From positions 1-40,696 of IMG/VR virus record IMGVR_UViG_3300022751_000025: a DNA stretch of 40,696 nucleotides; one strand, written 5' to 3'. How positions within the stretch are numbered: position 1 is the first letter of the stretch; every line of letters begins with the position of its first letter. The translations under genes were made by a program, and so were the position numbers. Below the pieces are notes generated by a model. That model searched no databases, had not been told where the DNA came from, and worked only from the letters and a program-made list of their open reading frames with translations. Origin of the DNA: a virus. Below, one piece after another: positions 3,988 through 34,697 of this stretch.

Positions 3988-4003
3988 GCAACAACATTGT
4001 TAC
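3988..4003. promoter_or_regulatory. Palindromic operator-like site A (GCAAC-N6-GTTAC)
   Basis: GCAACAACATTGTTAC, 9 of 10 half-site positions match GTAAC-N6-GTTAC. It lies in the 51-bp gap between the VRR-NUC gene and the gene at 4038. Confidence 0.6.
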
Positions 4004-4037
4004 ACCGGAAAAGAAAAGTAATAGGTAAGTTTGTGGT

Positions 4038-4523
4038 ATGATCAAAGAAATAAAAACAGAGAAATTCTCAGGGCTGGCAATGCTGGTGCCGGATGACGCA
4101 ACAAAATTCAGCCTTAAAAAAACCAAGAAGGGTAAGCCTGATCAACTTCACTATTTCATACCGTATACTTGTGATGCGGTATCAAATCAAAGATTAGTTA
4201 TTCTTCCCAGTGAAGACTATCTGTTTGTAGGCAAAGCAACAGAGCTTACAGAGGAACAGTGTGCTGAGATCACGCCTAACTCATTTTATGGAAGATTTAT
4301 AGATTACAACATGCTTGAGGTTAATTGTGGCACTGCAAAAGAATCCTTCGCTTCCCTCATGCAGTCGTTGCAATGCTATTCAGTTAATCCTTTGTCAGAC
4401 CCGGAGGGCACCATGAGGCAGGGTGATGGATATGTTTATTATAGCGCTTCTGATGAAGAATTTGAAGAGTACGAAAAAGCACAGGCCAACACCGGCACCT
4501 GGTTGATACTTAAAAAACTATGA
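4038..4523 (+). CDS. Protein of unknown function
   Basis: 161 aa, soluble, mixed composition with an acidic C-terminal third (repeated EEFEEYE-like residues) and no recognised catalytic motif or membrane segment. It is the first gene after palindromic site A and overlaps the next small gene by 4 nt (ATGA), so it probably heads the packaging operon. No function is proposed. Confidence 0.8.
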   Translation: MIKEIKTEKFSGLAMLVPDDATKFSLKKTKKGKPDQLHYFIPYTCDAVSNQRLVILPSEDYLFVGKATELTEEQCAEITPNSFYGRFIDYNMLEVNCGTAKESFASLMQSLQCYSVNPLSDPEGTMRQGDGYVYYSASDEEFEEYEKAQANTGTWLILKKL

Positions 4524-4684
4524 CTCGAAGACACGAAAAGATTAAACCGCATTTGACTGAGCAGTATAATAGGCAGCAGGAAAGAATAGACTTGTGGATT
4601 AGGATAGCTCATAATGCTTTATACAATCCGGTTACAACAGGTATTAACATGGGTTCTTTTTTCTCTACTCGTTTTAAAAAGTAA
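4520..4684 (+). CDS. Small basic protein
   Basis: 54 aa, beginning MTRRHEKIK and ending STRFKK, rich in Arg, Lys, His and Gln, with a Trp in the middle. The ATG overlaps the stop of the preceding gene by 4 nt, the usual sign of translational coupling, and it sits 32 bp before the small terminase. Unknown function; a nucleic-acid-binding packaging accessory is possible but not shown. Confidence 0.65.
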   Translation: MTRRHEKIKPHLTEQYNRQQERIDLWIRIAHNALYNPVTTGINMGSFFSTRFKK

Positions 4685-4716
4685 AATGACTATATTCGCC
4701 TAAACAATTCTAAACA

Positions 4717-5235
4717 ATGACTGAGCAGGTAAAGCGTTTTCTTGATGAATACTTTGTAACTCTAAATGGGTACAAATCAGCTGTTTACGCTGGTTTTTCT
4801 GATAAAACAGCAAGGCAACAAGCTAGTCATATGCTAGATGTTGAGGAAAATATAGAATACCTTTCTGTTTTAAGGGCTGAATATGCAAGTAAAAATGGGA
4901 TAAATAAAGAATCGATTCTTAATGAATATAGAAAAATTGCGTTCTCTGACGTACGTAAAATATTAACCATTGATGGCGGACTCAGGTCAATTGATGACTT
5001 GGACGATGATACTGCTGGAGCTATTGCTGGTATTGAATCTTTCGATGAGGTAAGCAGGGACGGAGAAAGGCTTGGTACGAATAGAAAAATAAAGCTTCAC
5101 GATAAGTTAAGAGCTTTAGAGGCTTTATCTAAGCATTTAGGTTTATTCGAAAAAGATAACAGCCAATCGGCACCAATCGTAAACAATATAATTAATTTAG
5201 GAGAAGGAGAAGATCCGAATGCCGTTACTACCTAA
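4717..5235 (+). CDS. terS: Terminase small subunit
   Basis: 172 aa. The N-terminus has the helix-turn-helix pattern of the Terminase_2 family: a segment with NGYKSAVYAGFSDKTARQQA, then a long helix (AEYASKNGINKESILNEYRKI begins it) and a C-terminal region ending in a flexible acidic tail. TerS recognises the packaging site on DNA and controls TerL. The gene overlaps the large terminase by 17 nt. A -7-like box TATATTCG at 4691-4698 may provide a weak local promoter. Confidence 0.88.
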   Translation: MTEQVKRFLDEYFVTLNGYKSAVYAGFSDKTARQQASHMLDVEENIEYLSVLRAEYASKNGINKESILNEYRKIAFSDVRKILTIDGGLRSIDDLDDDTAGAIAGIESFDEVSRDGERLGTNRKIKLHDKLRALEALSKHLGLFEKDNSQSAPIVNNIINLGEGEDPNAVTT

Positions 5236-6523
5236 GCAAAAGAATGCCGTATTCTATCTGAATGATAATACCACGTCTGAAATAATATACGGTGGTGCTG
5301 CAGGTGGTGGTAAAACTGCATTAGGATGTTTAAGGGAGATTGAACAAGCTCAAAAATACCCAGGATCTAGGGGTTTATTAGGCAGGTCTAAACTCAAAAC
5401 ATTAAAGGAAACAACCCTAAATACTTTTTTTGAACAGGCTGCTATACACAAAGTATCCAATCAATTCAAGTTCAATGCACAGGAAAATATTATTCACTGG
5501 AAAAACGGCAGCGACACCTTGCTAAAAGACCTTTTCCTATATCCTTCTGATAAAGAATTTGATAGCCTTGGATCGTTAGAGATTACAAGGGCTTTTGTTG
5601 ACGAGTGTAACCAGATCGTACATAAAGCATGGGATGTTGTAGGCTCCAGAATCAGGTACAAGCTGAACCAATTCGACTTAATGCCTAAACAGCTGGGTAG
5701 CTGTAACCCCTCTAAAGGCTGGGTATACACCAAAGTTTATAAGCCTAACCGTGATGGGATTTTAAGGCCAGATATCAAGTTCATACAAGCATTACCAAAA
5801 GACAATCCATATTTACCCCCTTCTTATGTTCAAAGGTTACTAAGAATGGAGAAAAATAGTCGTGAGCGTCTGTATTATGGCAACTGGGAATATGACGACG
5901 ATCCTGCAGCTTTAATGTCTATTGACGCTATAAATAACCTTTGGACAAATACCTTTGTAAGGTCTGGCAAGAAGTATATAACAGCTGATATTGCTCGTTT
6001 TGGAAAGGATAAATCAGTTATTATAGTTTGGGATGGGCTACGGGCAATAAAAATAGTTGTCCTGTCTAAAAAATCAGTTACATGGGTTGCCCAGGAGATA
6101 GCGGATTTGAGAAATGAGTATATGATACCTCTGAATCAAGTTATTTGCGATGAAGACGGTGTAGGCGGAGGTGTAGTTGATATACTTGGTTGTGTTGGTT
6201 TTGTGAATAATTCAACTCCTAAATATTCAGAAAACTTCGAAAATCTAAAGGCTCAATGCTACTATAAATTATCAGAAATAGTTAATTTATCGCTAATGTA
6301 TTTAGGTTGCATTACCGACAGTGATATGATTGCTGAAACAATAGAAGAGCTGGAGCAGGTGAAGCAAAAAGATATGGATAAGGATGGTAAAAAGAAAATC
6401 ATCCCTAAAGACGCTGTAAAAGAATTGCTGGGAAGATCTCCGGATTATTCAGATGCCATAATGATGCGAATGTATTTTGAGATTGAAGATAACATTGATG
6501 AATTTCAATCATGGTCGGGATAA
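5219..6523 (+). CDS. terL: Terminase large subunit (packaging ATPase and nuclease)
   Basis: 434 aa, the usual length. Walker A is GGAAGGGKT (25-33); the Walker B-like acidic pair is in AFVDECNQI near residue 130. The C-terminal RNase H-fold nuclease shows TADIARFGKDKS near 255, CDEDGVGGG near 310 and SPDYSDA near 413, whose Asp residues should bind metal. TerL cuts the concatemer and pumps it into the prohead through the portal encoded next. It belongs to the Terminase_3/6-type TerL group. Confidence 0.95.
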   Translation: MPLLPKQKNAVFYLNDNTTSEIIYGGAAGGGKTALGCLREIEQAQKYPGSRGLLGRSKLKTLKETTLNTFFEQAAIHKVSNQFKFNAQENIIHWKNGSDTLLKDLFLYPSDKEFDSLGSLEITRAFVDECNQIVHKAWDVVGSRIRYKLNQFDLMPKQLGSCNPSKGWVYTKVYKPNRDGILRPDIKFIQALPKDNPYLPPSYVQRLLRMEKNSRERLYYGNWEYDDDPAALMSIDAINNLWTNTFVRSGKKYITADIARFGKDKSVIIVWDGLRAIKIVVLSKKSVTWVAQEIADLRNEYMIPLNQVICDEDGVGGGVVDILGCVGFVNNSTPKYSENFENLKAQCYYKLSEIVNLSLMYLGCITDSDMIAETIEELEQVKQKDMDKDGKKKIIPKDAVKELLGRSPDYSDAIMMRMYFEIEDNIDEFQSWSG

Positions 6524-6554
6524 TTGTAATTATGTAACTATATTGTTACTTTTA
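6524..6554 (+). promoter_or_regulatory. Promoter for portal/head operon
   Basis: TTG at 6524-6526, a 20-bp spacer and TACTTTTA at 6547-6554, close to the Bacteroidota consensus TTG-N19/20-TAnnTTTG, ending 5 bp before the portal ATG. The right arm of palindromic site B overlaps the -7 box. Confidence 0.6.
6534..6549. promoter_or_regulatory. Palindromic operator-like site B (GTAAC-N6-GTTAC)
   Basis: GTAACTATATTGTTAC, perfect half-sites. The right half-site shares its TAC with the -7 box of the portal promoter. Confidence 0.7.
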
Positions 6555-6559
6555 CAGTC

Positions 6560-7945
6560 ATGGAAATAAAACAGTATTTCAAAAGCGTGGCATCAGCTGT
6601 AATGGCCCCGGTAGTAAAGTCATTATCAAATACCTTCCCCGCTTATGGTGCTGGATTTACCATGATGATGGGCGGTACTTTCAATATGCTGGGAATCGGG
6701 AACAAAGCAGCATATTCAAATAAAATCTTCTATACCGCTTCAAATATATTCGTTCGTAAAATAACAGAGGCTCCTATTATATTCAGCGAGGAGAAAAACA
6801 AAGCCGCAGCCCGTAAGTTTGCCTCTAAATATTATTCAAAATCAATATCCAATGAAGACAGGGCTTTTATAAAAGCGGCCGTATTGACCGAACTTGAAAA
6901 CCATGATCTTAACGATATGTTCGATAAGTTGGGTATAGAGGGGATGGAGGATTTTTGGTATAACTATAATCACGGAGATGGTTTTTTATTCTTTGAAACA
7001 TTAGATCCCGAATTTAGCCGCAGCACTAAACCGGTTGCTGTCCACTCTTTAAATCGTGATCGTGTTACCCCTGTTCAATCCTTAGAAAGGTTTGAAGCTA
7101 TTAGCCATTACCTGTATACAACGAATAACGGTACTCAAATCAGGATTGATAAAGACAACATGCTACATCTTAAGCACTGGAATCCAAATCACGGTGATTT
7201 AAAGGGGCTAGGAGTCGATTTAATTGCTAACCCTGATATATCACTTAACACGGCTAATACAACAGCACAGGGGGCCGCATTTGAGAATGGAGGACGAGGT
7301 ACGTTATTCAGCTCAACAGTAGATATTACTAGTGAGGGTAAGCGGGTAGGTAAGATGACCGTTCAGGAGATGGCAGACCTGAAAAAGACGGTTCTCGAAG
7401 ATATGTCCGGGGCTAGGAATAACCGTAGGCAGAAATTCACCAACAATGATGTAAAGGTAACGCCATATGGGGACACTTTAGCTGAAATGGAGTTGGTAGA
7501 ATCTGAAAAATCTAACTGGCTTAACATATTTGCTATTATGGGATTACCATGGGCGTTGTCTCCTGTAGGCTCAATGGCCAGTGAAAACTCTGTCATTGTG
7601 GGCTATAAATCGCTTGTAACAAACTTATGCATATCTGAACTTCGTAAATTTGACCAGAAGCTGAGTCAAAAAATCGGTAAATGGTGGCCAGGAGTAATCG
7701 GAGCGCACGATTTAACCGAATATAGCGAGCTTGCGCCTGATTTAAAGCTGATGAAAGAGACATTCGGGGCCCCTTTATTGCGTGTTGATGAAGTCAGAAA
7801 GATGTACAGATTCGACGAAATTGGGGGTGATGAAGGTAATGCAATATTAGTTCCATCTGGTTTTATGCAGCTAAAGGATATCATATCAGATGAATTTGCT
7901 GATACTCCTAATCCTGACGATGAAAACGCACCTAATAGCTTGTAG
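6560..7945 (+). CDS. Portal protein
   Basis: 461 aa. Size, position right after TerL and the central region (residues ~140-330, with TPVQSLERF, DKDNMLHLKHWNP and a SLNTANTTAQGAAFENGG helix stretch) fit the HK97-type phage portal family. Twelve copies form the ring at one capsid vertex through which DNA enters and to which the connectors bind. The C-terminus is acidic and disordered (DTPNPDDENAPNSL). The gene begins its own transcription unit behind palindromic site B. Confidence 0.87.
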   Translation: MEIKQYFKSVASAVMAPVVKSLSNTFPAYGAGFTMMMGGTFNMLGIGNKAAYSNKIFYTASNIFVRKITEAPIIFSEEKNKAAARKFASKYYSKSISNEDRAFIKAAVLTELENHDLNDMFDKLGIEGMEDFWYNYNHGDGFLFFETLDPEFSRSTKPVAVHSLNRDRVTPVQSLERFEAISHYLYTTNNGTQIRIDKDNMLHLKHWNPNHGDLKGLGVDLIANPDISLNTANTTAQGAAFENGGRGTLFSSTVDITSEGKRVGKMTVQEMADLKKTVLEDMSGARNNRRQKFTNNDVKVTPYGDTLAEMELVESEKSNWLNIFAIMGLPWALSPVGSMASENSVIVGYKSLVTNLCISELRKFDQKLSQKIGKWWPGVIGAHDLTEYSELAPDLKLMKETFGAPLLRVDEVRKMYRFDEIGGDEGNAILVPSGFMQLKDIISDEFADTPNPDDENAPNSL

Positions 7946-7947
7946 AT

Positions 7948-8112
7948 ATGGCAAAATTAGATTATAGTTTCGGGTTCGATCCAACGGAAATGTTAAAGAT
8001 GTATCATAAAGGTATCGAAGATTGTTTTATTCTAATTTCAGATTTTAGTGAGCTGGAATCCTTGTGTGGCATAAATAATATACAAATCAGTCATGATAAT
8101 GACGATATTTGA
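7948..8112 (+). CDS. Small acidic protein
   Basis: 54 aa, beginning MAKLDYSFGFDP and ending HDNDDI; acidic and soluble. It starts 2 bp after the portal stop and ends 3 bp before the MuF-like gene, so it is clearly part of the head operon. No domain recognised. Confidence 0.72.
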   Translation: MAKLDYSFGFDPTEMLKMYHKGIEDCFILISDFSELESLCGINNIQISHDNDDI

Positions 8113-8115
8113 GGT

Positions 8116-8955
8116 ATGGCCATAAACGAATTTAAACAGGAACGAATAGACTTCGCCAAGTTTCATAAGACAGCCGAGAAACAGTTATTACCATTCTTTA
8201 AGAAAGCATTAGCCAACAACCTGGGAAATGTTACCGCTTGGGTCGAAACTAATGGCTTGATTGGTGTTCCTGTATCAATGCTTATTGATCAGGCTGTATG
8301 GCGTGAAGTATACCCTAAAGTTTACCAGCTAATCGGAATGAAGATGTGTAGACAGGAATATTACAGACAAAGGAGATTAGAAGGTGCTGCAGAAACAAAA
8401 GCAAGTGCAATTGAATTCCTTGTTGATGTATGGTCTGGTAAAATGCGGGAATATGCTGGCGAATATGTGAATTTCATTGAATCTAAGCTTAACGCGACTA
8501 CTATTGAGATTATTGAGCGCGCATTGGGTGAAGCAGGATCATTAGAATTAGATGCTAAAGGTAGATTGAGATTTTTCTACGACAAAATAAAGTCCGATTT
8601 CTTATCAAGATCAAAAAATATATCAAGAACAGAAACTACACGAATTGCGGCGCTGGGTAAAGAAATCGGGGCTACTTCATGGATAGAAGAACAAGGTCAA
8701 GGAGGGTATCGGGCGTGGTTAGGGCGTGTTTCCGGTGAAAGGCCAACACATTTAGCTACTAACAACACCGTAATACAGTTAGATGGTTTTTATACCGTAG
8801 GCGGTCATCAATGCAAAAGACCTGGAGATTCATCTCTCCCTATTGAAGAAGTCGCGAATTGCCGTTGCTGTGAAACTTTTATGTCAGGGAGAAGATACGA
8901 CCAATATTTGAAAAGAGGTCGTATCGCTGGAGGTAAAATAACGGGAGCTAGTTAG
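8116..8955 (+). CDS. MuF-like head morphogenesis protein
   Basis: 279 aa. The C-terminal half carries the Phage_Mu_F signature: SRTETTRIAALG, then W-x-E-x-Q, RPTHLATN, a GGHQCKRPGDSSLP segment and NCRC at the end. Members of the SPP1 gp7 / Mu F family are minor head proteins bound to the portal and sometimes ejected with DNA. It lies directly after the portal and ends the first head block, facing the leftward cassette that begins at 10208. Confidence 0.88.
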   Translation: MAINEFKQERIDFAKFHKTAEKQLLPFFKKALANNLGNVTAWVETNGLIGVPVSMLIDQAVWREVYPKVYQLIGMKMCRQEYYRQRRLEGAAETKASAIEFLVDVWSGKMREYAGEYVNFIESKLNATTIEIIERALGEAGSLELDAKGRLRFFYDKIKSDFLSRSKNISRTETTRIAALGKEIGATSWIEEQGQGGYRAWLGRVSGERPTHLATNNTVIQLDGFYTVGGHQCKRPGDSSLPIEEVANCRCCETFMSGRRYDQYLKRGRIAGGKITGAS

Positions 8956-8979
8956 TATAAATATGTAACTGGTTACGGA

Positions 8980-9132
8980 TTATTTCAACAATTCTGAAAC
9001 CCATTCAGTGAACATTTTATTTACTGACCTCGGGTATTTTTCGGTCAACTCAGTCCATACTTTTGAATCTATTCTTAGCCCTGGAGTTATAGTTTTATAT
9101 TTTTTTGGTCTACCTGCTTTTTTCTTTTCCAT
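8980..9132 (-). CDS. Small AT-hook / ribbon-helix-helix-like DNA-binding protein
   Basis: 50 aa. The N-terminus has KKKAGRPKKYK, an AT-hook-like GRPKK, followed by LRIDSKVWTELTEKYPRSV and a helix to the end, which resembles a ribbon-helix-helix fold (beta strand, then two helices). It is the last gene of the leftward cassette 10208-8980, after the terminator-like hairpin at 9143-9171. It may be a cassette regulator. The start is the only ATG that keeps the basic N-terminus. Confidence 0.68.
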   Translation of the reverse strand: MEKKKAGRPKKYKTITPGLRIDSKVWTELTEKYPRSVNKMFTEWVSELLK

Positions 9133-9142
9133 GATTTTTAGG

Positions 9143-9171: not shown

Positions 9172-9209
9172 CGGATATGGCGTTAATATTATAATTGAAT
9201 TATTAGTAG

Positions 9210-9977
9210 TTACTTAAACTTCTCTTCGCAAAAAATACCGCAATCAGGCATTTTTAGGGTTTTCATACTTCTGCCTTTTGCCTCTACTGGCAATTCATCA
9301 AGAAATAATCTTTTCCCTTTATATCTTACTAATCGGCAACCTAGCCTCCTGCTCTGCTCTGCTCTTTCTTTAAATACATCCGGATAAACTTCCCTTACTT
9401 TATTCCAGTAAGTAGGGGATGTCGCTTTAACACAACCTTTACAATTAGCATTAACGAACCCCATACGGTAAGCTTCTGGAAGCTCTATGCCAGCTGACAC
9501 GATGATATCTATACACTCCTGTTTTCCTATTTTGTGGAATCCTAAGATGTCAATAACGTTGCTCCGTTCTGTAAGTTTAAATCGGTCTAGCCTCCCCTTT
9601 TCTTCAGAAGTGAACCCCATTACAATATGATCGAATGTATTGTTTTGCTCCCAGTATTTACGTGCGTCTTTTTTAAGCGTAGAAGTACAAACGGCTCCAT
9701 ATATACCAGACATGTACGTAAGCTTATCAAAAACCTGTACTATTGAAGCGTCAGGAAATTTAGGGTTTACGCATTTTTCTATAGGATGCCCAATCCATCT
9801 TTCTACATCATTTAAAAACCTATGATTATCGTCCCCCTCTTCTGATATAGGGTTATTAACTATACGTATAGTGTTGTTGCTTCCATATAGATCTACTACG
9901 TATTTAGCAGCAACCGCTGAAGCAGCGCCACAAGAGAACCACACTACTATTGTTTTACCTTCTAATACTTCTAACAT
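9210..9977 (-). CDS. PP-loop ATPase, PAPS-reductase-like family
   Basis: 255 aa. The N-terminal SCGAAS (15-20) is the SxGxxS-type PP-loop of N-type ATP pyrophosphatases, as in PAPS reductases and related nucleotide or RNA modification enzymes. Conserved-looking cysteines follow: C97, C179-x2-C182, C214 and C246-x3-C250, a pattern able to hold a metal or Fe-S cluster. Phages often carry such genes, but substrates are mostly unknown; sulfate reduction and base or nucleic-acid modification are both possible. It is encoded against the structural operon, in a cassette with two small genes. Confidence 0.82.
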   Translation of the reverse strand: MLEVLEGKTIVVWFSCGAASAVAAKYVVDLYGSNNTIRIVNNPISEEGDDNHRFLNDVERWIGHPIEKCVNPKFPDASIVQVFDKLTYMSGIYGAVCTSTLKKDARKYWEQNNTFDHIVMGFTSEEKGRLDRFKLTERSNVIDILGFHKIGKQECIDIIVSAGIELPEAYRMGFVNANCKGCVKATSPTYWNKVREVYPDVFKERAEQSRRLGCRLVRYKGKRLFLDELPVEAKGRSMKTLKMPDCGIFCEEKFK

Positions 9978-10355: not shown

Positions 10356-10820
10356 ATGCTAAAACAAAAAAATCCATACGGCTGCGGTTTATACGCGGTG
10401 GCAAATGCTTGTAATTTAGACAAATTCGCCACGGATGAACGTGTAGAGTCAAGTAAAATAAACGGGTCATCAAACGGCATGCTGTCTAAGTACTTATTAG
10501 AAGATGGAACGGGGTTTTACCTACAGCCCTTATTTTATGACGCGCATGCTGATAAATTACCCTTCAATCAAACCGAATATAAGGTCAATGGAGATGTGTT
10601 AGCACTTCCATTGGTGTTATGCTGCAAATTATCAGAAAATGGATTCTGGCACATGATAGGCGCACACCTTGATAAGCATGGAGTGCTGTATGTTTATGAC
10701 TCGCTGCGGGATGATGTATTTGAAACTACATTGGCAGAGGTGCACAATTATTACCATTCCGTGTTTGGGCTATATGCCTTTTGCGACCTTAACACTGGTG
10801 AATATGCGTTTATTTTGTAA
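10356..10820 (+). CDS. Papain/C39-fold cysteine-peptidase-like protein
   Basis: 154 aa from the ATG at 10356; an upstream in-frame ATG at 10320 would lie inside the promoter. C10 sits in YGCGLYAVANA, like the catalytic Cys-Gly at a helix start in C39/papain-fold peptidases. H99 in WHMIGAHLD and D115 in LYVYDSL match the usual H then D order. No signal peptide. It lies between the head genes and the prohead protease, in its own transcription unit. It might process a head protein or act on the host; catalytic activity is inferred only from the triad spacing. Confidence 0.62.
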   Translation: MLKQKNPYGCGLYAVANACNLDKFATDERVESSKINGSSNGMLSKYLLEDGTGFYLQPLFYDAHADKLPFNQTEYKVNGDVLALPLVLCCKLSENGFWHMIGAHLDKHGVLYVYDSLRDDVFETTLAEVHNYYHSVFGLYAFCDLNTGEYAFIL

Positions 10821-10832
10821 CCAAAATGTTAC
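10817..10832. promoter_or_regulatory. Palindromic operator-like site C (GTAAC-N6-GTTAC)
   Basis: GTAACCAAAATGTTAC, perfect half-sites, overlapping the stop codon of the cysteine-peptidase-like gene and 22 bp before a TATATTTG box. Confidence 0.65.
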
Positions 10833-10854: not shown

Positions 10855-10928
10855 TATATTTGAATTGAAAAACATAATGAGAGCGTTAATTTAGAAACCG
10901 ATATAGCTGGATGGCGTATCGGTTTTTT
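10855..10928 (+). ncRNA. Candidate small RNA with own promoter and terminator
   Basis: TATATTTG at 10855-10862 (with a weak TTTA 18 bp upstream) is followed within 70 bp by a strong terminator at 10895-10928. No gene of normal size fits between; only a 5-codon ORF (ATG at 10877) exists. A transcript of about 60 nt or a short leader with early termination is predicted. Confidence 0.45.
10895..10928 (+). terminator. Rho-independent terminator
   Basis: AAACCGATA (10895-10903) pairs perfectly with TATCGGTTT (10917-10925), 13-nt loop, followed by a T-run to 10928. Confidence 0.85.
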
Positions 10929-10934: not shown

Positions 10935-10964
10935 TTTGCATTTGTGATTTAATTACTATATTTG
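10935..10964 (+). promoter_or_regulatory. Promoter for protease/capsid operon
   Basis: TTTG (10935-10938), 18-bp spacer, TATATTTG (10957-10964), 24 bp before the ATG at 10989. Palindromic site D follows directly, between this box and the gene. Confidence 0.65.
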
Positions 10965-10970: not shown

Positions 10971-10986
10971 GTAATATTATTGTTAC
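10971..10986. promoter_or_regulatory. Palindromic operator-like site D (GTAAT-N6-GTTAC)
   Basis: GTAATATTATTGTTAC, 9 of 10 half-site positions match. It ends 2 bp before the ATG at 10989, downstream of the -7 box, a position where binding would block elongation or initiation. Confidence 0.6.
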
Positions 10987-10988
10987 AT

Positions 10989-11117
10989 ATGGATAAGGAA
11001 AAAGAAAATAAGTCAGAAGAAGCCCTGAAAAAGGCAAAGGATAAAACATCTGATCCTAAGATTAAATCCGAAATTGACAAGAAATTGAAATACGTAAATA
11101 ATCAATTCAATAAATGA
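10989..11117 (+). CDS. Small highly charged protein
   Basis: 42 aa, almost entirely Lys, Glu, Asp, Ser and Asn, beginning MDKEKENKSEEALKKAK; probably one helix or disordered. It overlaps the prohead protease start by 4 nt (ATGA), which supports translation. It might be a small scaffold-like helper or a leader for coupling; the function is unknown. Confidence 0.65.
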   Translation: MDKEKENKSEEALKKAKDKTSDPKIKSEIDKKLKYVNNQFNK

Positions 11118-13968: not shown

Positions 13969-14235
13969 TTAATATTCTAAAATAGAAGCTAAATTTCTAA
14001 AATCAGGTAAATCTTTTGTATGGCATAACACGGCATAATCACCCATATGGCTATTTAATAAAACTTCCATGCCTAAAAGGATAAATTTCCCTGTTGGTTT
14101 TTCACATATAGATCCACTTATATGTAAAAACCACATTTCAGACATGTATATTCTATTTGGACAGTACCCTTTATTAGTTATGTATTTAGTTCTTTCTTGG
14201 AATATTCTGTTTAAAAGACCTTCTCTGTTTGTCAT
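13969..14235 (-). CDS. Protein of unknown function (antisense cassette 2)
   Basis: 88 aa, beginning MTNREGLLNRIFQERTKY. The ATG at 14235 is chosen over a TTG at 14241 because the TTG lies inside a TATATTTG promoter box that ends three bases before the ATG, which predicts a leaderless mRNA. Contains CPNRIYMSEMW and SHMGDYAVLCH; no domain recognised. First gene of a two-gene leftward cassette inserted between capsid and connector genes. Confidence 0.7.
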   Translation of the reverse strand: MTNREGLLNRIFQERTKYITNKGYCPNRIYMSEMWFLHISGSICEKPTGKFILLGMEVLLNSHMGDYAVLCHTKDLPDFRNLASILEY

Positions 14236-14238
14236 TCT

Positions 14239-14246
14239 CAAATATA
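14239..14246 (-). promoter_or_regulatory. -7 box of leftward cassette 2
   Basis: TATATTTG on the minus strand, followed by AGA and the ATG. No TTG is found at the expected -33 position; palindromic site E is centred about 42 bp upstream of the ATG. Confidence 0.6.
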
Positions 14247-14259: not shown

Positions 14260-14289
14260 TTGAAAATTGTAACATTATCACTACATTTG
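14260..14289 (+). promoter_or_regulatory. Promoter for connector/tail operon
   Basis: TTG (14260-14262), 19-bp spacer, TACATTTG (14282-14289): full match to the Bacteroidota consensus, 17 bp before the ATG at 14307. Confidence 0.72.
14269..14284. promoter_or_regulatory. Palindromic operator-like site E (GTAAC-N6-aCTAC)
   Basis: GTAACATTATCACTAC, 8 of 10 half-site positions match. It lies between the -33 and -7 elements of the rightward promoter and overlaps the -7 box. Confidence 0.5.
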
Positions 14290-16503: not shown

Positions 16504-16511
16504 CAAATATA
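16504..16511 (-). promoter_or_regulatory. -7 box of leftward cassette 3
   Basis: TATATTTG on the minus strand, four bases before the ATG at 16499. No TTG at -33; palindromic site F is centred about 42 bp upstream of the ATG. Confidence 0.55.
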
Positions 16512-16533: not shown

Positions 16534-16549
16534 GTACTATTGTTGTTAC
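16534..16549. promoter_or_regulatory. Palindromic operator-like site F (GTact-N6-GTTAC)
   Basis: GTACTATTGTTGTTAC, 8 of 10 half-site positions match; it covers the -33 element of the tail-tube promoter. Confidence 0.45.
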
Positions 16550-16591: not shown

Positions 16592-17071
16592 ATGGCATTT
16601 TTAAACGGACGTACAGTATTGCTGTACATTGACACTGAGACACCAATTGATACCGAAGTGGAAGATGTTACCACTGAGGCCGCTATACTGGTGGCGTGTT
16701 TAACATCAAACGGATTCGAAGGTACGACTTCGGCAATTGCAACTACTTCTAAATGTTCCGGCTCATTTGCTGAATCATTGGATGGCGAAAAAGGATGGAC
16801 TATGTCCGCTGAAGGTCAGGCGATATCTTTATTAGGAGGTGATCTAAGGATCAACCACAATAAGTTATTCAAACTTTGGAGATCAGGTGCCGCTTTCTGG
16901 GCATTTATGATGGACACAGCGACGCCAGTAATTACAATGCGTTATGGCGTTGCAAGGATTGATTCATTTAATGATGGCGCTCCTGACAATGAAGCACAAA
17001 CCTTCTCTATTAGCTTAACTGGTATCGGACAGCCTGGAGATCAGGACGACATTGCACCTATTGTACCTTAA
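16592..17071 (+). CDS. Major tail tube protein
   Basis: 159 aa. The start FLNGRTVLLYIDTETP, the central SGSFAESLDGEKGWTMSAEG and the C-terminal AQTFSISLTGIGQ are typical of phage tail tube proteins of the gpV/TP901-1-like beta-sandwich fold. Hexamers stack to form the tail tube on which the tape measure sets the length. It directly precedes the chaperone and tape-measure genes, the conserved siphovirus order. Confidence 0.88.
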   Translation: MAFLNGRTVLLYIDTETPIDTEVEDVTTEAAILVACLTSNGFEGTTSAIATTSKCSGSFAESLDGEKGWTMSAEGQAISLLGGDLRINHNKLFKLWRSGAAFWAFMMDTATPVITMRYGVARIDSFNDGAPDNEAQTFSISLTGIGQPGDQDDIAPIVP

Positions 17072-26959: not shown

Positions 26960-27132
26960 ATGGTTGGCTTTATAGATGAAACGTGTTTTATGTTTTTTAA
27001 TGGCGTTTGCCATATGTCGCTGATGAATAACTGAATTAAAAACACATCATCATTCATAGGATCAACAGATATGCCTTTGCATATTACATGCATCCTCCCA
27101 TTTACAGGCTCTTTAAACTCAATTTTCAACAT
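26956..27132 (-). CDS. Small protein of unknown function
   Basis: 58 aa, beginning MLKIEFKEPVNGRMHVI and containing CKGISVDPMNDDVFLIQLF. Its start overlaps the end of the preceding leftward gene by 14 nt and its stop overlaps the next start by 4 nt; this tight packing is the main evidence that it is real. Soluble, no domain recognised. Confidence 0.66.
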   Translation of the reverse strand: MLKIEFKEPVNGRMHVICKGISVDPMNDDVFLIQLFISDIWQTPLKNIKHVSSIKPTI

Positions 27133-27349
27133 CGAATATGCCTTTAGTTAGGTGAAAAATAGATCCTGGCAATAGCTTAAATGATTCCGATGTTCCTTGA
27201 ATAAACAAAGCCGGACATACATTATTGTAACCTGATGTCATCCATTCTTTAATAACTGAATCCCTGTCTACACCGAATAATTCGACTTGATGTCTGCCGT
27301 TAAACTTGCACTTTTCTTGAAGTGATAAAATAAATTTGTGTATTACCAT
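27119..27349 (-). CDS. Small protein of unknown function, first gene of leftward cassette 4
   Basis: 76 aa, beginning MVIHKFILSLQEKCKFNGRH. It is followed without gaps by three more small leftward genes. TATATTTG (minus strand, 27361-27354) ends four bases before its ATG, so a leaderless mRNA is likely. No domain recognised. Confidence 0.7.
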   Translation of the reverse strand: MVIHKFILSLQEKCKFNGRHQVELFGVDRDSVIKEWMTSGYNNVCPALFIQGTSESFKLLPGSIFHLTKGIFDVEN

Positions 27350-27378: not shown

Positions 27379-27409
27379 TTGTATCATTGTCGCATATTTG
27401 TTACATTTA
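27379..27409 (+). promoter_or_regulatory. Promoter for membrane-protein operon
   Basis: TTG (27379-27381), 20-bp spacer, TACATTTA (27402-27409), one mismatch to TAnnTTTG, 23 bp before the ATG at 27433. Confidence 0.55.
27389..27404. promoter_or_regulatory. Palindromic operator-like site I (GTcgC-N6-GTTAC)
   Basis: GTCGCATATTTGTTAC, 8 of 10 half-site positions match; the right half-site overlaps the -7 box of the rightward promoter. Confidence 0.45.
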
Positions 27410-28889: not shown

Positions 28890-29702
28890 CTAAACATTAA
28901 TTCCGGTTATTAATTTGAATTTATCTTTATCAAAGTTAGGTAATGAAGTGAATACCTTTTTATTTTCATCACTCAAATTATGCCACATATTAGACCATGC
29001 TTCATGCATAGAGATTGATTTCAAAAATCCTCCAGTAGTTTCGTGTGATGGGTATTGTTTCTTTTGATCTCCTGTCATTTCCGATGAAAATACCCATATA
29101 TTAGGATTAAGGTAATTTTTCATAATATTGTATGCCTGGTGGCGTTCCCAATCTCTAACCAATATATCAGTCTCAACATCAAACAATTTTACCTTCGGAT
29201 TATTATCAGAACAAAAAGCCCCGGTGTTCCTGTACCCGGTGTTACTGTCCCCGGTGTTCCTGTCCCCGGTGTTCCAGTCCCCGGTGTTACTGTCCCCGGT
29301 GTTCCTGTCCCCGGTGTTCCTGTACCCGGTGTTCCTGTACCCGGTGTTCCAGTCCCCGGTGTTCCAGTCCCCGGTGTTAGATCTTCCTGTATTGTTTTTA
29401 CCTATATTACAAATTGACAATACTTCATGCCACGTTAGTTCTCTTATGAATTCTATTCTACCAGAACAGTGTTTATCTCCTTGTGTGTCTAAATAGCCAT
29501 AAGAAATAATTTCAAAAACTCTATTTTCTGAATTGAAATCGTAATAATTAAAGCAATCATTGGCTATCTCACAAAAATGAAATCCTTTACTGCATATTTT
29601 TATTTCACCTTCAATTGAGAATACTTTACCAAATTCAAATTGGTAATTACGGCATTTCATGTTTTTGTCAGTCACCTTGTAACCCTTAGTTTGTTTTTCC
29701 AT
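28890..29702 (-). CDS. NTG pentapeptide-repeat protein
   Basis: 270 aa. Residues ~104-163 are twelve tandem pentapeptides of the form NTG followed by DW, DR, DS, YR or RS, the N-x-G pattern of the Pentapeptide_2 type, which should build a narrow beta-helix-like rod. The flanking domains are soluble: an N-terminal ~95 aa with GFHFCEIANDCFNYYDFN, and a C-terminal ~105 aa. The protein is alone in leftward cassette 5, between membrane proteins and endolysin. The role is unknown; a binding surface or decoy is possible. Confidence 0.78.
   Translation of the reverse strand: MEKQTKGYKVTDKNMKCRNYQFEFGKVFSIEGEIKICSKGFHFCEIANDCFNYYDFNSENRVFEIISYGYLDTQGDKHCSGRIEFIRELTWHEVLSICNIGKNNTGRSNTGDWNTGDWNTGYRNTGYRNTGDRNTGDSNTGDWNTGDRNTGDSNTGYRNTGAFCSDNNPKVKLFDVETDILVRDWERHQAYNIMKNYLNPNIWVFSSEMTGDQKKQYPSHETTGGFLKSISMHEAWSNMWHNLSDENKKVFTSLPNFDKDKFKLITGINV
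29221..29385. repeat. 15-bp tandem repeat, 11 phased copies
   Basis: CCGGTGTT recurs exactly every 15 bp from 29221 to 29371 (11 copies), with variation confined to the two codons after NTG. It codes for the NTG pentapeptides of the leftward gene and looks recently expanded. Confidence 0.9.
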
Positions 29703-29757
29703 TATATTTGAAATTTTTTAGTGTCCTCAAACCTACAAAATTACTATTTCACTTTTT

Positions 29758-29773
29758 GTAACAACTTTGCTAC
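29758..29773. promoter_or_regulatory. Palindromic operator-like site G with -7 box (endolysin promoter)
   Basis: GTAACAACTTTGCTAC, 9 of 10 half-site positions match. Its right end runs into TACCTTTA (29771-29778), a near-consensus -7 box four bases before the endolysin ATG. Confidence 0.58.
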
Positions 29774-29782
29774 CTTTACCTT

Positions 29783-30478: not shown

Positions 30479-30499
30479 ACAATTAAACCAAAATAAATT

Positions 30500-30916
30500 A
30501 TGTCAATTTTAGATTTCCTTAAAGGCGTACTAGCGACCTTTATTTCAAACTTCCCTAAATTCTATGAACGTCTTTACAAAAAGATAGTTCCAGAAATCAA
30601 AGAACAGGTATCGGTAATTACCAAAGTTGTTAACGGTATCAAGCAATTTGTAGATAGTCCATTAGCTGACGTCTTAACCCAAATTATTCCAGGCGGAGTA
30701 GATGACGTAATGAAAGACTGGCTAAGAAAAAAATTACCAGCAATCCTTACCAATTTAGGTTACCTAGAAAACGGTATTATAAAGCTGTCAGACGATTCAA
30801 AAGCAAAAGGAGGACAGCTAGTCGCTTTGTCTTCTGTTCTTACCTCAGAGATCACAGAAATGCCCTTGAGCCAAGCGGCAATCACAGCGCAGGTAGTTTA
30901 TCAGGCTGAACAGTAA
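30500..30916 (+). CDS. Protein of unknown function after endolysin
   Basis: 138 aa. Beginning MSILDFLKGVLATFISNFPK, with amphipathic helices and no strong transmembrane segment; a Val/Ile/Leu-rich middle and an Ala/Gln-rich end. Located 21 bp after the endolysin and ahead of a strong terminator, so it is co-transcribed with lysis. It may be an atypical holin/pinholin-like or spanin-related helper; this is guesswork from position. Confidence 0.75.
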   Translation: MSILDFLKGVLATFISNFPKFYERLYKKIVPEIKEQVSVITKVVNGIKQFVDSPLADVLTQIIPGGVDDVMKDWLRKKLPAILTNLGYLENGIIKLSDDSKAKGGQLVALSSVLTSEITEMPLSQAAITAQVVYQAEQ

Positions 30917-30964
30917 AAATAATCCCCCTGTCATTGGTTAATTGATGCAGGGGGATTATTTATT
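30917..30964. terminator. Bidirectional rho-independent terminator
   Basis: AAATAATCCCCCTG (30917-30930) pairs perfectly with CAGGGGGATTATTT (30948-30961). It separates the convergent late rightward genes and the leftward operon ending at 30963. Confidence 0.88.
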
Positions 30965-31328
30965 ATAAGGGTATATTTAGGAGTAACCTAATAGCGGTAG
31001 CGCACGTGTGGATGGCTTCCGTTCTTACTTCTTCAAGTTTACCGCCTTCCATTTCGTATTGAACAGCGGCTCTGGTTAATTCTCCGTTTTCCTCGCCTAC
31101 AATTGAAGCAGCGTATACCAAGTCCTCTGGCCAGTTAGGGTGTTTGATTTGTGCTCTATCGATTTCTAATAACACAGATTGTATGATATTATTAAGGTCT
31201 GAATCAATTGATACCATTAAATTGTGTAAATCTATTGATGCGTCCTTTGCGTCTTTTTTGGAAACAAAATCCTCCTCTGAATGGGCGATGAGTAAATCAA
31301 TAGCCCGTTGTAGTATTTCTTTTTTCAT
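30963..31328 (-). CDS. MazG-like nucleotide pyrophosphohydrolase
   Basis: 121 aa. IVGEENGELTRAAVQYEME (E79, E80, E83) and KLEEVRTEAIHTCATAIRLL (E100, E104) are the paired EExxE / ExxxE motifs of the all-alpha NTP pyrophosphatase (MazG) superfamily, whose Glu residues hold Mg and hydrolyse (d)NTPs. Phage versions may clean modified nucleotides or lower (p)ppGpp-type alarms. Last gene of the leftward early operon. Confidence 0.85.
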   Translation of the reverse strand: MKKEILQRAIDLLIAHSEEDFVSKKDAKDASIDLHNLMVSIDSDLNNIIQSVLLEIDRAQIKHPNWPEDLVYAASIVGEENGELTRAAVQYEMEGGKLEEVRTEAIHTCATAIRLLLNIPL

Positions 31329-31333
31329 CTTTT

Positions 31334-31426
31334 CTAATAATTATTTAATTGTTCGTTTGCTTTCTTCTCTTCTCTCATATCCTTTACAATCCGGTAATAG
31401 AATATGTAATATAAAAATCTTATCAT
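31334..31426 (-). CDS. Very small membrane peptide
   Basis: 30 aa: MIRFLYYIFYYRIVKDMREE, an aromatic hydrophobic start and charged end. The ATG follows the upstream stop (31428) by one base and the stop is 5 bp before the MazG-like gene, so it fits the operon spacing. Could be a leader or membrane micropeptide. Confidence 0.45.
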   Translation of the reverse strand: MIRFLYYIFYYRIVKDMREEKKANEQLNNY

Positions 31427-31427
31427 G

Positions 31428-32096
31428 CTATTGCTTTTTAAATTGATCCCTTACCAATTTTCCAACCAGAACAGCTGCCTGAATCGGTGAATATTTCGTA
31501 GCGTAATATTCAGCTTTAACCTCTATCTCTTCATCACTGATCGCATTCTGACTAGACATCAGCCTGTTAATTTCCAGTGCCTTTTTATTGTCTTCCGCTT
31601 TCAGGTCATTGTAGGAGGCTAGTAGCAAGTCGTATGCAGGGTGTTTAAACTGATCTGAAAATCTCTTCATTGCGCACATTACTTCTTCTTTATGATAACA
31701 ATCTTCTCCGTAAGGATCCTCAGTTACATCTAACGCACTTAGTATTTCTTCTGCGCTCTTCACCTCCCCTGACTGAGGGGTGTTTGATGGTTGGAACGCA
31801 TTATCCCTTAAGTGTTGAACCTCTTTTTCAAGTTCCTTAATCCTGTGGGGATAAATTCTTAAAAGGCGCTCATTCTCATCTCTATGAACATCACAAAGAA
31901 TGCATTTATCTTCTGTTTCGAAGTTTGATAATGCAGTATAGCATTGACACCCAGAACATTTTTTACTATTTTCCACCATATTACCTGTATCTAGCAGGTG
32001 TTGAGCGAATTGTTTTAAAAATCCAACTAAAAAAGTATTGTAATTTTTTGCATCGCAAAACTCTTTTGCTGCAATTTGTAATTCTTGCTTATTCAT
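31428..32096 (-). CDS. Protein with zinc finger and coiled coil, unknown function
   Basis: 222 aa. A four-Cys motif (CSGCQCYTALSNFE, then KCILC) near residues 47-68 resembles a small zinc ribbon, followed by a predicted coiled coil (RIKELEKEVQHLRD). The C-terminus contains DEEIEVKAEYYATKYS, KFxDQFKH-like segments and LVRDQFKKQ. The first five residues MNKQE are the same as in the upstream neighbour. Overlaps it by 4 nt. Function unknown. Confidence 0.78.
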   Translation of the reverse strand: MNKQELQIAAKEFCDAKNYNTFLVGFLKQFAQHLLDTGNMVENSKKCSGCQCYTALSNFETEDKCILCDVHRDENERLLRIYPHRIKELEKEVQHLRDNAFQPSNTPQSGEVKSAEEILSALDVTEDPYGEDCYHKEEVMCAMKRFSDQFKHPAYDLLLASYNDLKAEDNKKALEINRLMSSQNAISDEEIEVKAEYYATKYSPIQAAVLVGKLVRDQFKKQ

Positions 32097-32418
32097 GGTT
32101 TTATAACTTTTAGTTTAATTCTGTAAATTTCAGCCGCAAGAAATGCTCCTGCTATTTTAAGTCTCTCAATATCAAATTCAGCAGGCGACATTCTAGCTCG
32201 CTTAGCTTCTATTTTCTCCTTAAACCAAGTGCCCCAGCTTTCTGGATACCAGTAATGACCCTCCCAATTATCGTGGACTAAGCACATTACTACGCCCTGT
32301 ATTTCGCCCTTTTTGTAATATTTATTATTCTTAACATCGAACCCGTGTTTTTCGATTTGTTCTCTACGTTCATCGGCAATCAACTCTATGCCTGTTTTAA
32401 TTTCTTGCTTATTCATGG
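32082..32418. repeat. 17-bp direct repeat at two start codons
   Basis: TTCTTGCTTATTCATGG occurs at 32082-32098 and again at 32402-32418, exactly 320 bp apart. On the minus strand each copy contains the start and first five codons (MNKQE) of a gene. Confidence 0.8.
32093..32416 (-). CDS. Conserved-looking phage protein of unknown function
   Basis: 107 aa, beginning MNKQEIKTGIELIADERREQ, then EKHGFDVKNN and WEGHYWYPESWGTWFKE, Trp-rich in the middle. The RREQIEKHGFD pattern is common in small proteins of Bacteroidota phages (family memory only). Overlaps its neighbours by 4 nt on both sides. Soluble; no catalytic motif. Confidence 0.76.
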   Translation of the reverse strand: MNKQEIKTGIELIADERREQIEKHGFDVKNNKYYKKGEIQGVVMCLVHDNWEGHYWYPESWGTWFKEKIEAKRARMSPAEFDIERLKIAGAFLAAEIYRIKLKVIKP

Positions 32419-32622
32419 CCTGTGTTTTCTAGAGTTCCAAAATCTTTCTAAGCTTGCCTTTTTATCAGCTTCTTGTGCTGCACGGTTAAGGCTGTCACGC
32501 AACTTAATTTCCGTACTGTCAATGCGCGGTTTCTTATACCCAGTAACGCATGCTGTAATATACATCAAGCAGAAAACAGCGGCTACGCACTGTATTAGTA
32601 ATGCTTCAAGTTCTCGTTTCAT
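32413..32622 (-). CDS. Small predicted lipoprotein
   Basis: 69 aa. After a short charged start the hydrophobic stretch VAAVFCLMYITAC ends in a lipobox-like ITAC (C25), followed by a soluble charged tail (RDSLNRAAQEADKKASLERF). It could be membrane-anchored by lipidation, as outer-membrane spanin subunits are, though it lies in the early operon rather than the lysis block. Overlaps neighbours by 4 nt. Confidence 0.6.
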   Translation of the reverse strand: MKRELEALLIQCVAAVFCLMYITACVTGYKKPRIDSTEIKLRDSLNRAAQEADKKASLERFWNSRKHRP

Positions 32623-33026
32623 GATTCATGTAATTTAACCCAACCTGCTTCTACCATTTGCTCAACTGATAAGCCCATCCAAGGTAATGCGTAGCCTTTT
32701 GAGCGGAGGTAGTCAAAGTTGGATGGCGTAAGATGATTTAAAAATCCACCTATACCATTTGCAAATGCTGAATATGTAGTAGTATAGTATTCTCCTTTAC
32801 TATCTGGAACTCTGACTATGTCGTATGGGTTTATTGAGGAAATTGGCTTGAGAATTAACTGACCGTTTGATGTATAATTTCTCTGCCCTAACGTGTCAAT
32901 CCAACCATAAGGTTTATCCGAATCCAACCGTATAATGTCTAACGTAGTTAAGCAATGATCAGCCATAAACTTATTACCTATGTACTGAGCAAAGAACTTT
33001 GCTTTGTTTTCTAATGTTATTTCCAT
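32619..33026 (-). CDS. Protein of unknown function
   Basis: 135 aa, soluble. Segments: AKFFAQYIGNKFMADHCLTT, GWIDTLGQRNYTSNGQLILK and C-terminal PWMGLSVEQMVEAGWVKL. The pattern of an N-terminal YIG-type helix and a beta core is often seen in small phage early proteins, but I do not recognise a function. Its start region is duplicated just upstream (21-bp tandem repeat, 33017-33058). Confidence 0.76.
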   Translation of the reverse strand: MEITLENKAKFFAQYIGNKFMADHCLTTLDIIRLDSDKPYGWIDTLGQRNYTSNGQLILKPISSINPYDIVRVPDSKGEYYTTTYSAFANGIGGFLNHLTPSNFDYLRSKGYALPWMGLSVEQMVEAGWVKLHES

Positions 33027-33058
33027 GTTAATTTATATTATTTCCATGTTAATTTATA
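33017..33058. repeat. 21-bp tandem duplication at a start codon
   Basis: TTATTTCCATGTTAATTTATA occurs twice in tandem (33017-33037, 33038-33058). On the minus strand it duplicates the ATG and leader of the gene starting at 33026; the upstream copy gives only a 4-codon ORF. Confidence 0.9.
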
Positions 33059-33063
33059 TTATT

Positions 33064-33141
33064 TTAAAGGTAAAACAATCCTGATGTAAATATGATTAGC
33101 ATGAACAGGCATAGTATGTTGGTTTTATGGTTGTGGGTCAT
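33064..33141 (-). CDS. Micropeptide with one membrane segment
   Basis: 25 aa: MTHNHKTNILCLFMLIIFTS and a short end. The ATG overlaps the stop of the preceding gene as ATGA, which is the main support for translation. Single hydrophobic helix; unknown function. Confidence 0.45.
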   Translation of the reverse strand: MTHNHKTNILCLFMLIIFTSGLFYL

Positions 33142-33479
33142 GGTGCTAATGTTAATAAAATTGCAGTTCCTTGTTTTTTAAAAGTGAAACTTCCTTTAAT
33201 CATAAGTTTCTTACCTAAGAAACCCCATCCTGAAAACCTGTATAAGTTTTCTCCTAAACAGGTTTCATCAAGTAGTTTCATCCCTGATTCGTATGTTTTA
33301 CCTGTTTTTTGATCTTTCCATTTTATATTTAAAGAAGATCTTCCTCTTGAAAATCCATCATAAAGTAATGTTGCATCGAAAACGTAGTTTTCTTTTTTAT
33401 ATGCCACTTCAAATGCATACCCTTCCCATGCTAATTGGTTTCCATCTTTATCAAAAGATATTTCAAAATATTTACCCAT
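33138..33479 (-). CDS. Protein of unknown function
   Basis: 113 aa, beta-rich: MGKYFEISFDKDGNQLAWEG, NYVFDATLLYDGFSRGRSSL, then GMKLLDETCLGENLYRFSGW. Alternating hydrophobic strands suggest a small beta sandwich or barrel. It starts 1 bp after the stop of a 32-aa micropeptide gene and overlaps a following micropeptide by 4 nt. No family recognised. Confidence 0.75.
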   Translation of the reverse strand: MGKYFEISFDKDGNQLAWEGYAFEVAYKKENYVFDATLLYDGFSRGRSSLNIKWKDQKTGKTYESGMKLLDETCLGENLYRFSGWGFLGKKLMIKGSFTFKKQGTAILLTLAP

Positions 33480-33480
33480 T

Positions 33481-33579
33481 TCACCCCTGTTTTACGCCTC
33501 GTGAGCAGATTAAAAAATAAATTCCTGTGATGATTACCAATACTTTAAAGGTAATAAATAGTGTTTCGTTTGAGATCAT
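33481..33579 (-). CDS. Micropeptide with one membrane segment
   Basis: 32 aa: MISNETLFITFKVLVIITGI continuing hydrophobic, then SRGVKQG. The ATG overlaps the stop of the HTH gene by 4 nt (ATGA). Likely a single-pass membrane peptide, second in the leftward early operon. Confidence 0.5.
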   Translation of the reverse strand: MISNETLFITFKVLVIITGIYFLICSRGVKQG

Positions 33580-33752
33580 TTTGTGAGTATTTGATAAATC
33601 GCTGAAACTGTTAAACCGTATTTCTTAGCTATCCTTTCTATACGATAAGCCGACCCGGATTGTGATTCTCCTTTAATATAAGAGCTGTTCATTTCTTTCT
33701 GATAAGCTAACTTAATAGCTTCATTACGTTTGTCTCTTTCTTCTTTTTTCAT
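33576..33752 (-). CDS. Small HTH protein, first gene of leftward early operon
   Basis: 58 aa from the ATG at 33752. Basic start (MKKEERDKRNEAIKLAYQKE), then YRIERIAKKYGLTVSAIYQI, a helix-turn-helix of the simple resolvase/sigma-like type. A longer reading from 33797 would run through the TACATTTG box (minus strand 33780-33773). It may regulate the divergent early operons. Confidence 0.7.
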   Translation of the reverse strand: MKKEERDKRNEAIKLAYQKEMNSSYIKGESQSGSAYRIERIAKKYGLTVSAIYQILTK

Positions 33753-33912
33753 ATTGTTTGTTTTTATTAAGACAAATGTAATTACTACGTTTGACAATTC
33801 CTAATTTTGTATATAAAAAATAATATAAAATATTTTATTAAATATATTTGCACATATCATTCATTTTGCTTTACTTTGTCCTGTCGATCACAAACAACAT
33901 CGGCTAAATATT
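33753..33912. promoter_or_regulatory. Divergent early control region
   Basis: The 160-bp gap between the leftward (33752) and rightward (33913) early operons. It holds TACATTTG on the minus strand (33773-33780), TACGTTTG (33786-33793) and TATATTTG (33843-33850) on the plus strand, and the 14-bp AT palindrome ATAAAATATTTTAT (33825-33838), a possible operator for the nearby HTH protein. Confidence 0.6.
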
Positions 33913-34041
33913 ATGAAAACAGGAATTGAAATCAAAGGAAAAATACCAGCTTGGAAAATAGTTGTGATGTCGTTAGTTGCATCTGGAATTGTTGCACTGA
34001 TTGGTTATGGTATATATAAAATTATTGAAAGGGGGTATTAA
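33913..34041 (+). CDS. Small single-pass membrane protein
   Basis: 42 aa: soluble start MKTGIEIKGKIPAWK, membrane segment VVMSLVASGIVALIGYGIY, then KIIERGY. First gene of the rightward early operon, 2 bp before the next gene. Function unknown. Confidence 0.62.
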   Translation: MKTGIEIKGKIPAWKIVVMSLVASGIVALIGYGIYKIIERGY

Positions 34042-34043
34042 TT

Positions 34044-34253
34044 ATGAAAGATTTAAAAGAGTTTGACTTTCAGCAAAAAGTGTTAGAAATGACTTCGGAG
34101 TTTGGAGGATACGAAGATTCAGTGGCTATTTGTAATTTTGAATTTAATGGTGAAAAAGTCCAGGTGAGAATTAGCCTTGTGTGTGCCAGTGAAGATAATT
34201 ACTCAGATTACGAAGGAATACCAACGATTGAATTACCTGACTTAGATTTATAA
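34044..34253 (+). CDS. Small acidic protein of unknown function
   Basis: 69 aa, beginning MKDLKEFDFQQKVLEMTSEF and ending TIELPDLDL; acidic, soluble, probably alpha/beta. Early gene directly after the membrane peptide. Confidence 0.72.
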   Translation: MKDLKEFDFQQKVLEMTSEFGGYEDSVAICNFEFNGEKVQVRISLVCASEDNYSDYEGIPTIELPDLDL

Positions 34254-34256
34254 ATT

Positions 34257-34385
34257 ATGACCCCCTACCAAACCCTACTACACCGAAACATCAACTTCAA
34301 GGCGTCAATTCTGAAGTTATCGCCAACACTTAATACAGTGACAATAAAATTCAATGCTATGGTTTTACATAATGCTAAGAAATAA
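34257..34385 (+). CDS. Small basic protein
   Basis: 42 aa: MTPYQTLLHRNINFKASILK, then LSPTLNTVTIKFN and ending AKK. It starts 3 bp after the previous stop and its stop overlaps the next ATG by one base. Unknown function; support is from spacing only. Confidence 0.5.
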   Translation: MTPYQTLLHRNINFKASILKLSPTLNTVTIKFNAMVLHNAKK

Positions 34386-34615
34386 TGGATCAAATAACAA
34401 AAAATAAAATAGCACAATGCCTGGCGTTGTCTATGGAGATTGAAGGGGCATTTTTCTACAAAAACCCTAATGTATCGTTGATAAGTGTTTATAAAATAGA
34501 AAACAATCAGCAAGTATGGGATTATTCGGCATACTACGATGAAGAGTTTAATAACATCGACAAGATGATCAAAGATTTGTCTAATCACATCAATAATGAA
34601 ACCCCCTCACATTAA
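34385..34615 (+). CDS. Small protein of unknown function
   Basis: 76 aa, starting MDQITKNKIAQCLALSMEIE and containing NQQVWDYSAYYDEEFNN; soluble and acidic. It overlaps the next micropeptide gene by 20 nt. Confidence 0.7.
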   Translation: MDQITKNKIAQCLALSMEIEGAFFYKNPNVSLISVYKIENNQQVWDYSAYYDEEFNNIDKMIKDLSNHINNETPSH

Positions 34616-34685
34616 ATACACCATATTCCTGCGCGTCACAATGGCAATAGGAATTATTTATTCGATTGTTTACTTACTCCGGTAA
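34596..34685 (+). CDS. Micropeptide with one membrane segment
   Basis: 29 aa: MKPPHIKYTIFLRV, then hydrophobic TMAIGIIYSIVYLLR. It overlaps the end of the previous gene, and its stop lies within palindromic site H. Weakly supported. Confidence 0.42.
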   Translation: MKPPHIKYTIFLRVTMAIGIIYSIVYLLR

Positions 34686-34697
34686 CCAAATCGTTAC
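34682..34697. promoter_or_regulatory. Palindromic operator-like site H (GTAAC-N6-GTTAC)
   Basis: GTAACCAAATCGTTAC, perfect half-sites, 36 bp before the gene at 34733. This is the only copy in the early rightward operon. Confidence 0.65.

Follow-up and report, generated by a model that had tools for sequence, protein, structure and literature searches.

The phage genome and its relatives

The stretch of DNA analysed here, which we call the window, covers positions 1 to 40,696 (40,696 nucleotides) of the virus record IMGVR_UViG_3300022751_000025. Its ends repeat, and the record looks like the complete and circular genome of a tailed phage. The proteins of the window match terminases, amidase, helicase, DNA methylase, exonuclease, HNH and related families; from gene order and homology we read the structural genes as portal, MuF-like, protease, capsid, connector and tape measure genes. 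One protein matches phosphoadenosine phosphosulfate reductase (phrog_424) and is probably encoded by 9210-9977 on the minus strand, inside the structural region.

When annotated phages were searched for near-identity, no match was obtained, and even the nearest named phages, judged by terminase, share only 58% identity. Since the closest terminases in named genomes are those of Pedobacter, Sphingobacterium and Flavobacterium, we take the host to be a Bacteroidota bacterium, perhaps a member of the Sphingobacteriaceae. The portal protein was also used to look for the host in 395 Bacteroidia genomes and gave only a prophage portal at 30% identity. Searches with terminase and portal returned many viral relatives.

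A palindrome is enriched between genes

An earlier note on this DNA had described a dispersed palindrome, GTAAC-N6-GTTAC, at nine intergenic sites, and on rescanning the window we found all nine coordinates and mismatch counts to be correct (Table 1). Three copies are exact and three have one mismatch, where dinucleotide shuffles give 0.04 and 1.16, respectively (mean of 200); none of the 200 shuffles contained at least six sites with at most one mismatch. Intergenic DNA makes up 8.7% of the window, yet all six of these palindromes lie in it, the one at 10971 fully so only if the gene behind it starts at the ATG at 10989. The enrichment is limited to the 6-bp spacer: with spacers of 2-5 and 7-10 bp, the window contains 0-3 matches each, at most one of them intergenic.

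Table 1. The nine intergenic palindromes of the window, with predicted promoter boxes and following genes
Position	Strand	Palindrome (mismatches)	Predicted arrangement, plus side	Predicted arrangement, minus side	Genes
3988-4003	+	GCAACAACATTGTTAC (1)	upstream (activator) type; box TAAGTTTG at 4026-4033, gap 22		4038-4523 and terminase genes
6534-6549	+	GTAACTATATTGTTAC (0)	overlap (repressor) type; right half overlaps 5-of-6 box TACTTTTA at 6547-6554		portal gene, 10 bp further
10817-10832	+	GTAACCAAAATGTTAC (0)	single mixed case; box TATATTTG at 10855-10862, gap 22, and a 5-of-6 overlapping box		small pre-protease ORF (late gene)
10971-10986	+	GTAATATTATTGTTAC (1)	overlap type; just downstream of full TTTG-N18-TATATTTG promoter, box 10957-10964		small pre-protease ORF and protease, immediately following
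14269-14284	.	(2)	overlaps TACATTTG (14282-14289), -33 TTG 19 bp upstream	exact TATATTTG at 14239-14246, gap 22	between divergent promoters: connector gene (+); 13969-14241 (-)
16534-16549	.	(2)	box TAGTTTTG ends at first base of palindrome	exact TATATTTG at 16504-16511, gap 22	16592-17071 (+); unassigned short ORFs (-)
27389-27404	.	(2)	overlaps TACATTTA; weakest of the nine	TATATTTG box 27 bp off, outside usual phase	27119-27349 (-)
29758-29773	.	(1)	two-way; overlaps box TACCTTTA (29771-29778)	exact TAGGTTTG at 29728-29735, gap 22	amidase (+); 28890-29702 (-)
34682-34697	+	GTAACCAAATCGTTAC (0)	upstream type; 5-of-6 box TAAATTTA at 34720-34727, gap 22		early gene block beginning at 34733

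Copies with two mismatches, as a class, are at the level of chance (17 observed, 15.4 expected from shuffles), and four of them are intergenic. The three listed in the earlier note are real, but they are three of these four intergenic copies out of 17. Since the class is not enriched, the sites at 14269, 16534 and 27389 needed other support. For 14269 and 16534 this came from the minus strand, where an exact promoter box lies at the diagnostic distance. At 36554-36569 there is a further intergenic copy with two mismatches (GTATCATAAATGTGAC), the tenth in all and absent from the earlier list; no box was seen there at the diagnostic distance.

When related phages were scanned, the motif outnumbered its backwards-read control by 24 to 3 in G001, 10 to 2 in G003 and 9 to 2 in G004, but it was not enriched over this control in the more distant relatives G010, G011, G012 and G015. 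The enrichment recurs in the near group. The motif is thus conserved among close relatives; nor is it spread evenly over genes and intergenic DNA, and the reading of the earlier note stands on both points. G001 (IMGVR_UViG_3300022919_000004, 77 kb) contains two gene sets of phage length, and terminase, portal and motif are present in both; it may represent two joined related phages or an assembly artefact.

The consensus of the palindrome is about (T)GTAACAA-NN-TTGTTAC(A), and the letters GTAAC/GTTAC themselves are conserved, beyond mere pairing, which argues against a role as RNA hairpins. Palindromes arising by chance in AT-rich intergenic DNA would agree with the frequency of the two-mismatch copies, but not with the excess of exact and one-mismatch copies, the restriction to spacer 6, the conservation, or a preferred distance to promoter boxes that is absent from the reversed control (see below). 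Chance, or another role such as hairpins, is already contradicted by these controls and we give it almost no credence.

The palindrome takes two positions at predicted promoters

A TAnnTTTG box near -7 marks the sigma-A promoters of Bacteroidota, joined in Bacteroides fragilis by TTTG near -33 (PMC7366714); in Flavobacterium psychrophilum the -7 box spans -12 to -5 (PMC9723704). We observed that TAnnTTTG peaks 22 bp after the palindrome, at 21 of 167 non-redundant orientation-sites against a background of 1.8 per offset, with smaller counts among the 167 at gap 23 (8 sites) and gap 32 (6 sites). When the site set was loosened and only exact boxes were counted, 18 fell at gap 22 (mean, 1.26); no gap-22 peak was present in the reversed-motif control. 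Exact TAnnTTTG boxes also form a smaller peak at gap 27 (8 sites, background 1.26), displaced by half a helical turn from the main class, and the minus side of 27389 belongs to this set.

On predicted boxes, not mapped starts, gap 22 would place the palindrome centre near -42, as in class II activation, and gap 32 would place it one helical turn further up, at about -52. In the second, overlapping set, three placements were found: the right half of the palindrome supplies the TA of the -7 box, the box ends at the first base of the palindrome, or the palindrome covers the start region immediately downstream. The overlap excess at two of the offsets is partly built in, as motif and box share letters. 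A TTG at -33 was present at 1 of 29 upstream-type promoters and, at suitable distance, at 19 of 29 promoters of the main overlap type, in which the right half forms the box TA. These features suggest that a site upstream of a promoter whose -33 element is missing would activate, and that a site on or between the core elements would block the polymerase.

The upstream arrangement is like that of CRP/FNR class II promoters, with a 5-N6-5 palindrome near -42, no good upstream hexamer and an alternative position one turn up. The spacer of the dyad, about 6 bp for CRP (4 bp for FNR), agrees as well, 6 bp being the only one enriched here. Unlike in CRP (TGTGA) or FNR (TTGAT), the half-site is GTAAC(AA), and unlike in the classical systems the promoter has a Bacteroidota -7 box. 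Since the half-site differs and the factor is only putative, we do not file the sites as a CRP or FNR regulon. The CRP/FNR-like geometry proposed in the earlier note was strengthened by gap 22 and the missing -33 element, but the family of the factor stays putative, and the second, repressor-like placement at late genes had been overlooked, as had the leftward genes.

A single factor could also silence all these promoters, the early ones included, as during lysogeny or dormant infection; the overlap-type sites are clearly repressor-like and a site near -42 could hinder the polymerase too. Such pure repression is improbable in our view, since the fixed gap of 22, the 32-bp alternative one turn off and the missing -33 element are signs of activation, and neither a CI-like nor an integrase family is among the 21 Pfam families listed for 50 window proteins (E <= 0.01).

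The position of the palindrome follows gene class

Counting plus-strand sites only, we found 30 of the 39 overlap-only sites before late genes and none of the 16 upstream-only ones (P = 7e-8), the late genes counted being portal, small pre-protease ORF, connector, tail completion, major tail and amidase. Upstream-type sites head plus-strand genes of non-structural type and accessory genes that run leftward. The arrangements recur in relatives: the overlap type is found at the portal gene also in G001, G003, G004, G005, G525 and G527-G530, and site 21466 of G004 has an arrangement identical to that at 10971. In G001 and G529, the gene homologous to that behind 34682 is preceded by sites with gap 32.

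Some palindromes face promoters on both sides. Among the 121 intergenic palindromes with no more than one mismatch, 25 are accompanied by a minus-side promoter of the upstream type, mostly opposite a late gene on the plus strand; in the window, examples of such two-way sites are 29758 (one mismatch), 14269 and 16534 (two mismatches). It had been stated earlier that all nine palindromes head rightward units or lie between them, which is right as far as the rightward genes go, but on the other side of 14269, 16534, 27389 and 29758 there is a leftward box as well. The gene 28890-29702 (-), behind 29758, encodes pentapeptide-like NTGDWNTGYRNTG repeats and is probably the DUF7666 match.

Search for a regulator encoded by the phages

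No cNMP-binding or Crp-type HTH domain was found above cut-off in 16 phage records (the window and 15 related ones), so the earlier statement that no such regulator is encoded holds for CRP/FNR domains in all of them; G523 has one sub-threshold HTH match. In the window, weak HTH matches were obtained for 33576-33797 (58-73 aa, HTH-like) and 37838-38095 (85 aa, HTH_40-like). A phage regulator was also sought by comparing the protein families of 11 motif-bearing genomes, and no non-structural family was present in all.

The same regulon with its two geometries could be run by a small, fast-evolving phage regulator, for instance the 33576-33797 or the 37838-38095 protein. Small proteins can diverge past detection, and host genomes seldom contain the pattern (see below), as expected if hosts have no use for it. 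However, about ten operators per genome should fix the recognition surface of such a protein, and still no common non-structural family was found; in addition, half-site and phasing recur at a host promoter. We consider a phage regulator unlikely, if clearly a better candidate than pure repression.

Candidate sites in host genomes

The combined operator-plus-promoter pattern was found in 7 of 395 Bacteroidia genomes, with fewer matches than the control, and two of the seven matches concern one gene, which from its sequence we read as an M28-like peptidase. The exact palindrome was not enriched in 121 Sphingobacteriaceae genomes. A host regulon would therefore be very small, and a broad one of the exact palindrome was not seen in either genome set. 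A search with the exact consensus was about level with its control, and most matches, viewed in context, were without promoter spacing.

In one Sphingobacteriaceae genus, TGTAACAANNTTGTTA gave 29 listed matches in 41 genomes, against 4 for the control. At the peptidase promoters (genomes L205-L209, L212-L222, L224, L226, L229, L231 and L233), TAnnTTTG follows TGTAACAANNTTGTTA after 22-23 or 32-34 bp, and the intervening sequence has diverged. This promoter was found with the phage pattern as query, in a genus that may not be that of the phage's host, so that its weight rests on conservation across species. The half-site and the one-turn phasing are those of the phages, which suggests one factor, and we regard the M28 peptidase promoters as a candidate host regulon. 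Two genomes of this candidate host genus have about 23 and 34 matches to cNMP-binding domains.

A second conserved host site, TGTAACAATATTGTTAA, is found in four genomes (L242, L246, L259 and L260) ahead of a YeeE/YedE-like transporter pair; no TAnnTTTG was found near it in these genomes, and inspection of the neighbourhood by eye revealed no obvious adjoining CRP-type regulator. Among host CRP-family genes, none had a convincing palindrome at its own promoter. HcpR of Bacteroidetes was considered too; the present sequence is not printed in the HcpR paper found. Searches of the open literature gave nothing matching, either on a CRP/FNR motif of Bacteroidota or on phage switches under CRP control.

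Discussion

We propose, with a probability of about 60%, that the palindromes make up a phage-wide regulon of one dimeric factor, most likely host-encoded and of CRP/FNR type, that would turn early genes on and late genes off. Binding and the identity of the factor we infer from sequence, and activation, repression and timing from geometry only. The factor is probably host-encoded because the phage records compared have no CRP/FNR domain above cut-off and no common early gene, and the M28 peptidase element has the 22/32-bp phasing. Where the earlier note left the choice between a host factor and a small HTH/RHH protein, the absence of a common family and the match at a host promoter now favour the former and disfavour the latter.

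At early and accessory promoters, the factor would sit upstream of the -7 box, at about -42 and sometimes at about -52, and activate transcription; at late structural and lysis promoters it would sit between or on the core elements and block the polymerase. As long as it is active, the factor would hold the phage in the early programme, and once it disappears, becomes inactive or is titrated by the replicating DNA of the phage, the late promoters would open. That a single host transcription factor is in this way the early-to-late switch of the whole phage group, which seems to encode none of its own, with many palindromes working two ways between divergent promoters, is a more tentative proposal, for which we would put the odds a little below even.

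Gene timing in phages of Bacteroidota is poorly charted. The distance rule, 22 bp versus overlap, predicts early and late genes in about 20 metagenomic phage records whose annotations are mostly without function. If the factor is indeed that of the host, phage development would be coupled straight to the physiology of the bacterium, with no phage regulator in between, and co-option of the CtrA type would be extended to a two-way switch. Alphaproteobacteria phages co-opt host CtrA (lytic deferment), with repression in one phage and activation in others, and Spo0A in phi29 and LexA-controlled phages are further cases cited (PMC9437464). As in the CtrA phages, predicted sites of a host regulator cluster here at promoters of lytic phages. 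In contrast to the CtrA phages, in which factor and binding have been demonstrated, both are putative here; moreover, activation and repression are both predicted for the same genome, and the distance rule links them to gene class.

Two phage systems offer further comparison. At OR of lambda, one CI site activates the leftward promoter from about -42 and blocks the divergent promoter, and a like dual use of one site is predicted here; unlike in lambda, no CI-like protein was found, the sites are single and spread genome-wide, and late structural promoters would be the blocked ones. The stoperators of mycobacteriophage L5 are many short sites dispersed between genes, asymmetric and bound by the phage repressor. 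Unlike them, the sites described here are palindromic, tied to promoter cores and, as predicted from their position, partly of activator type.
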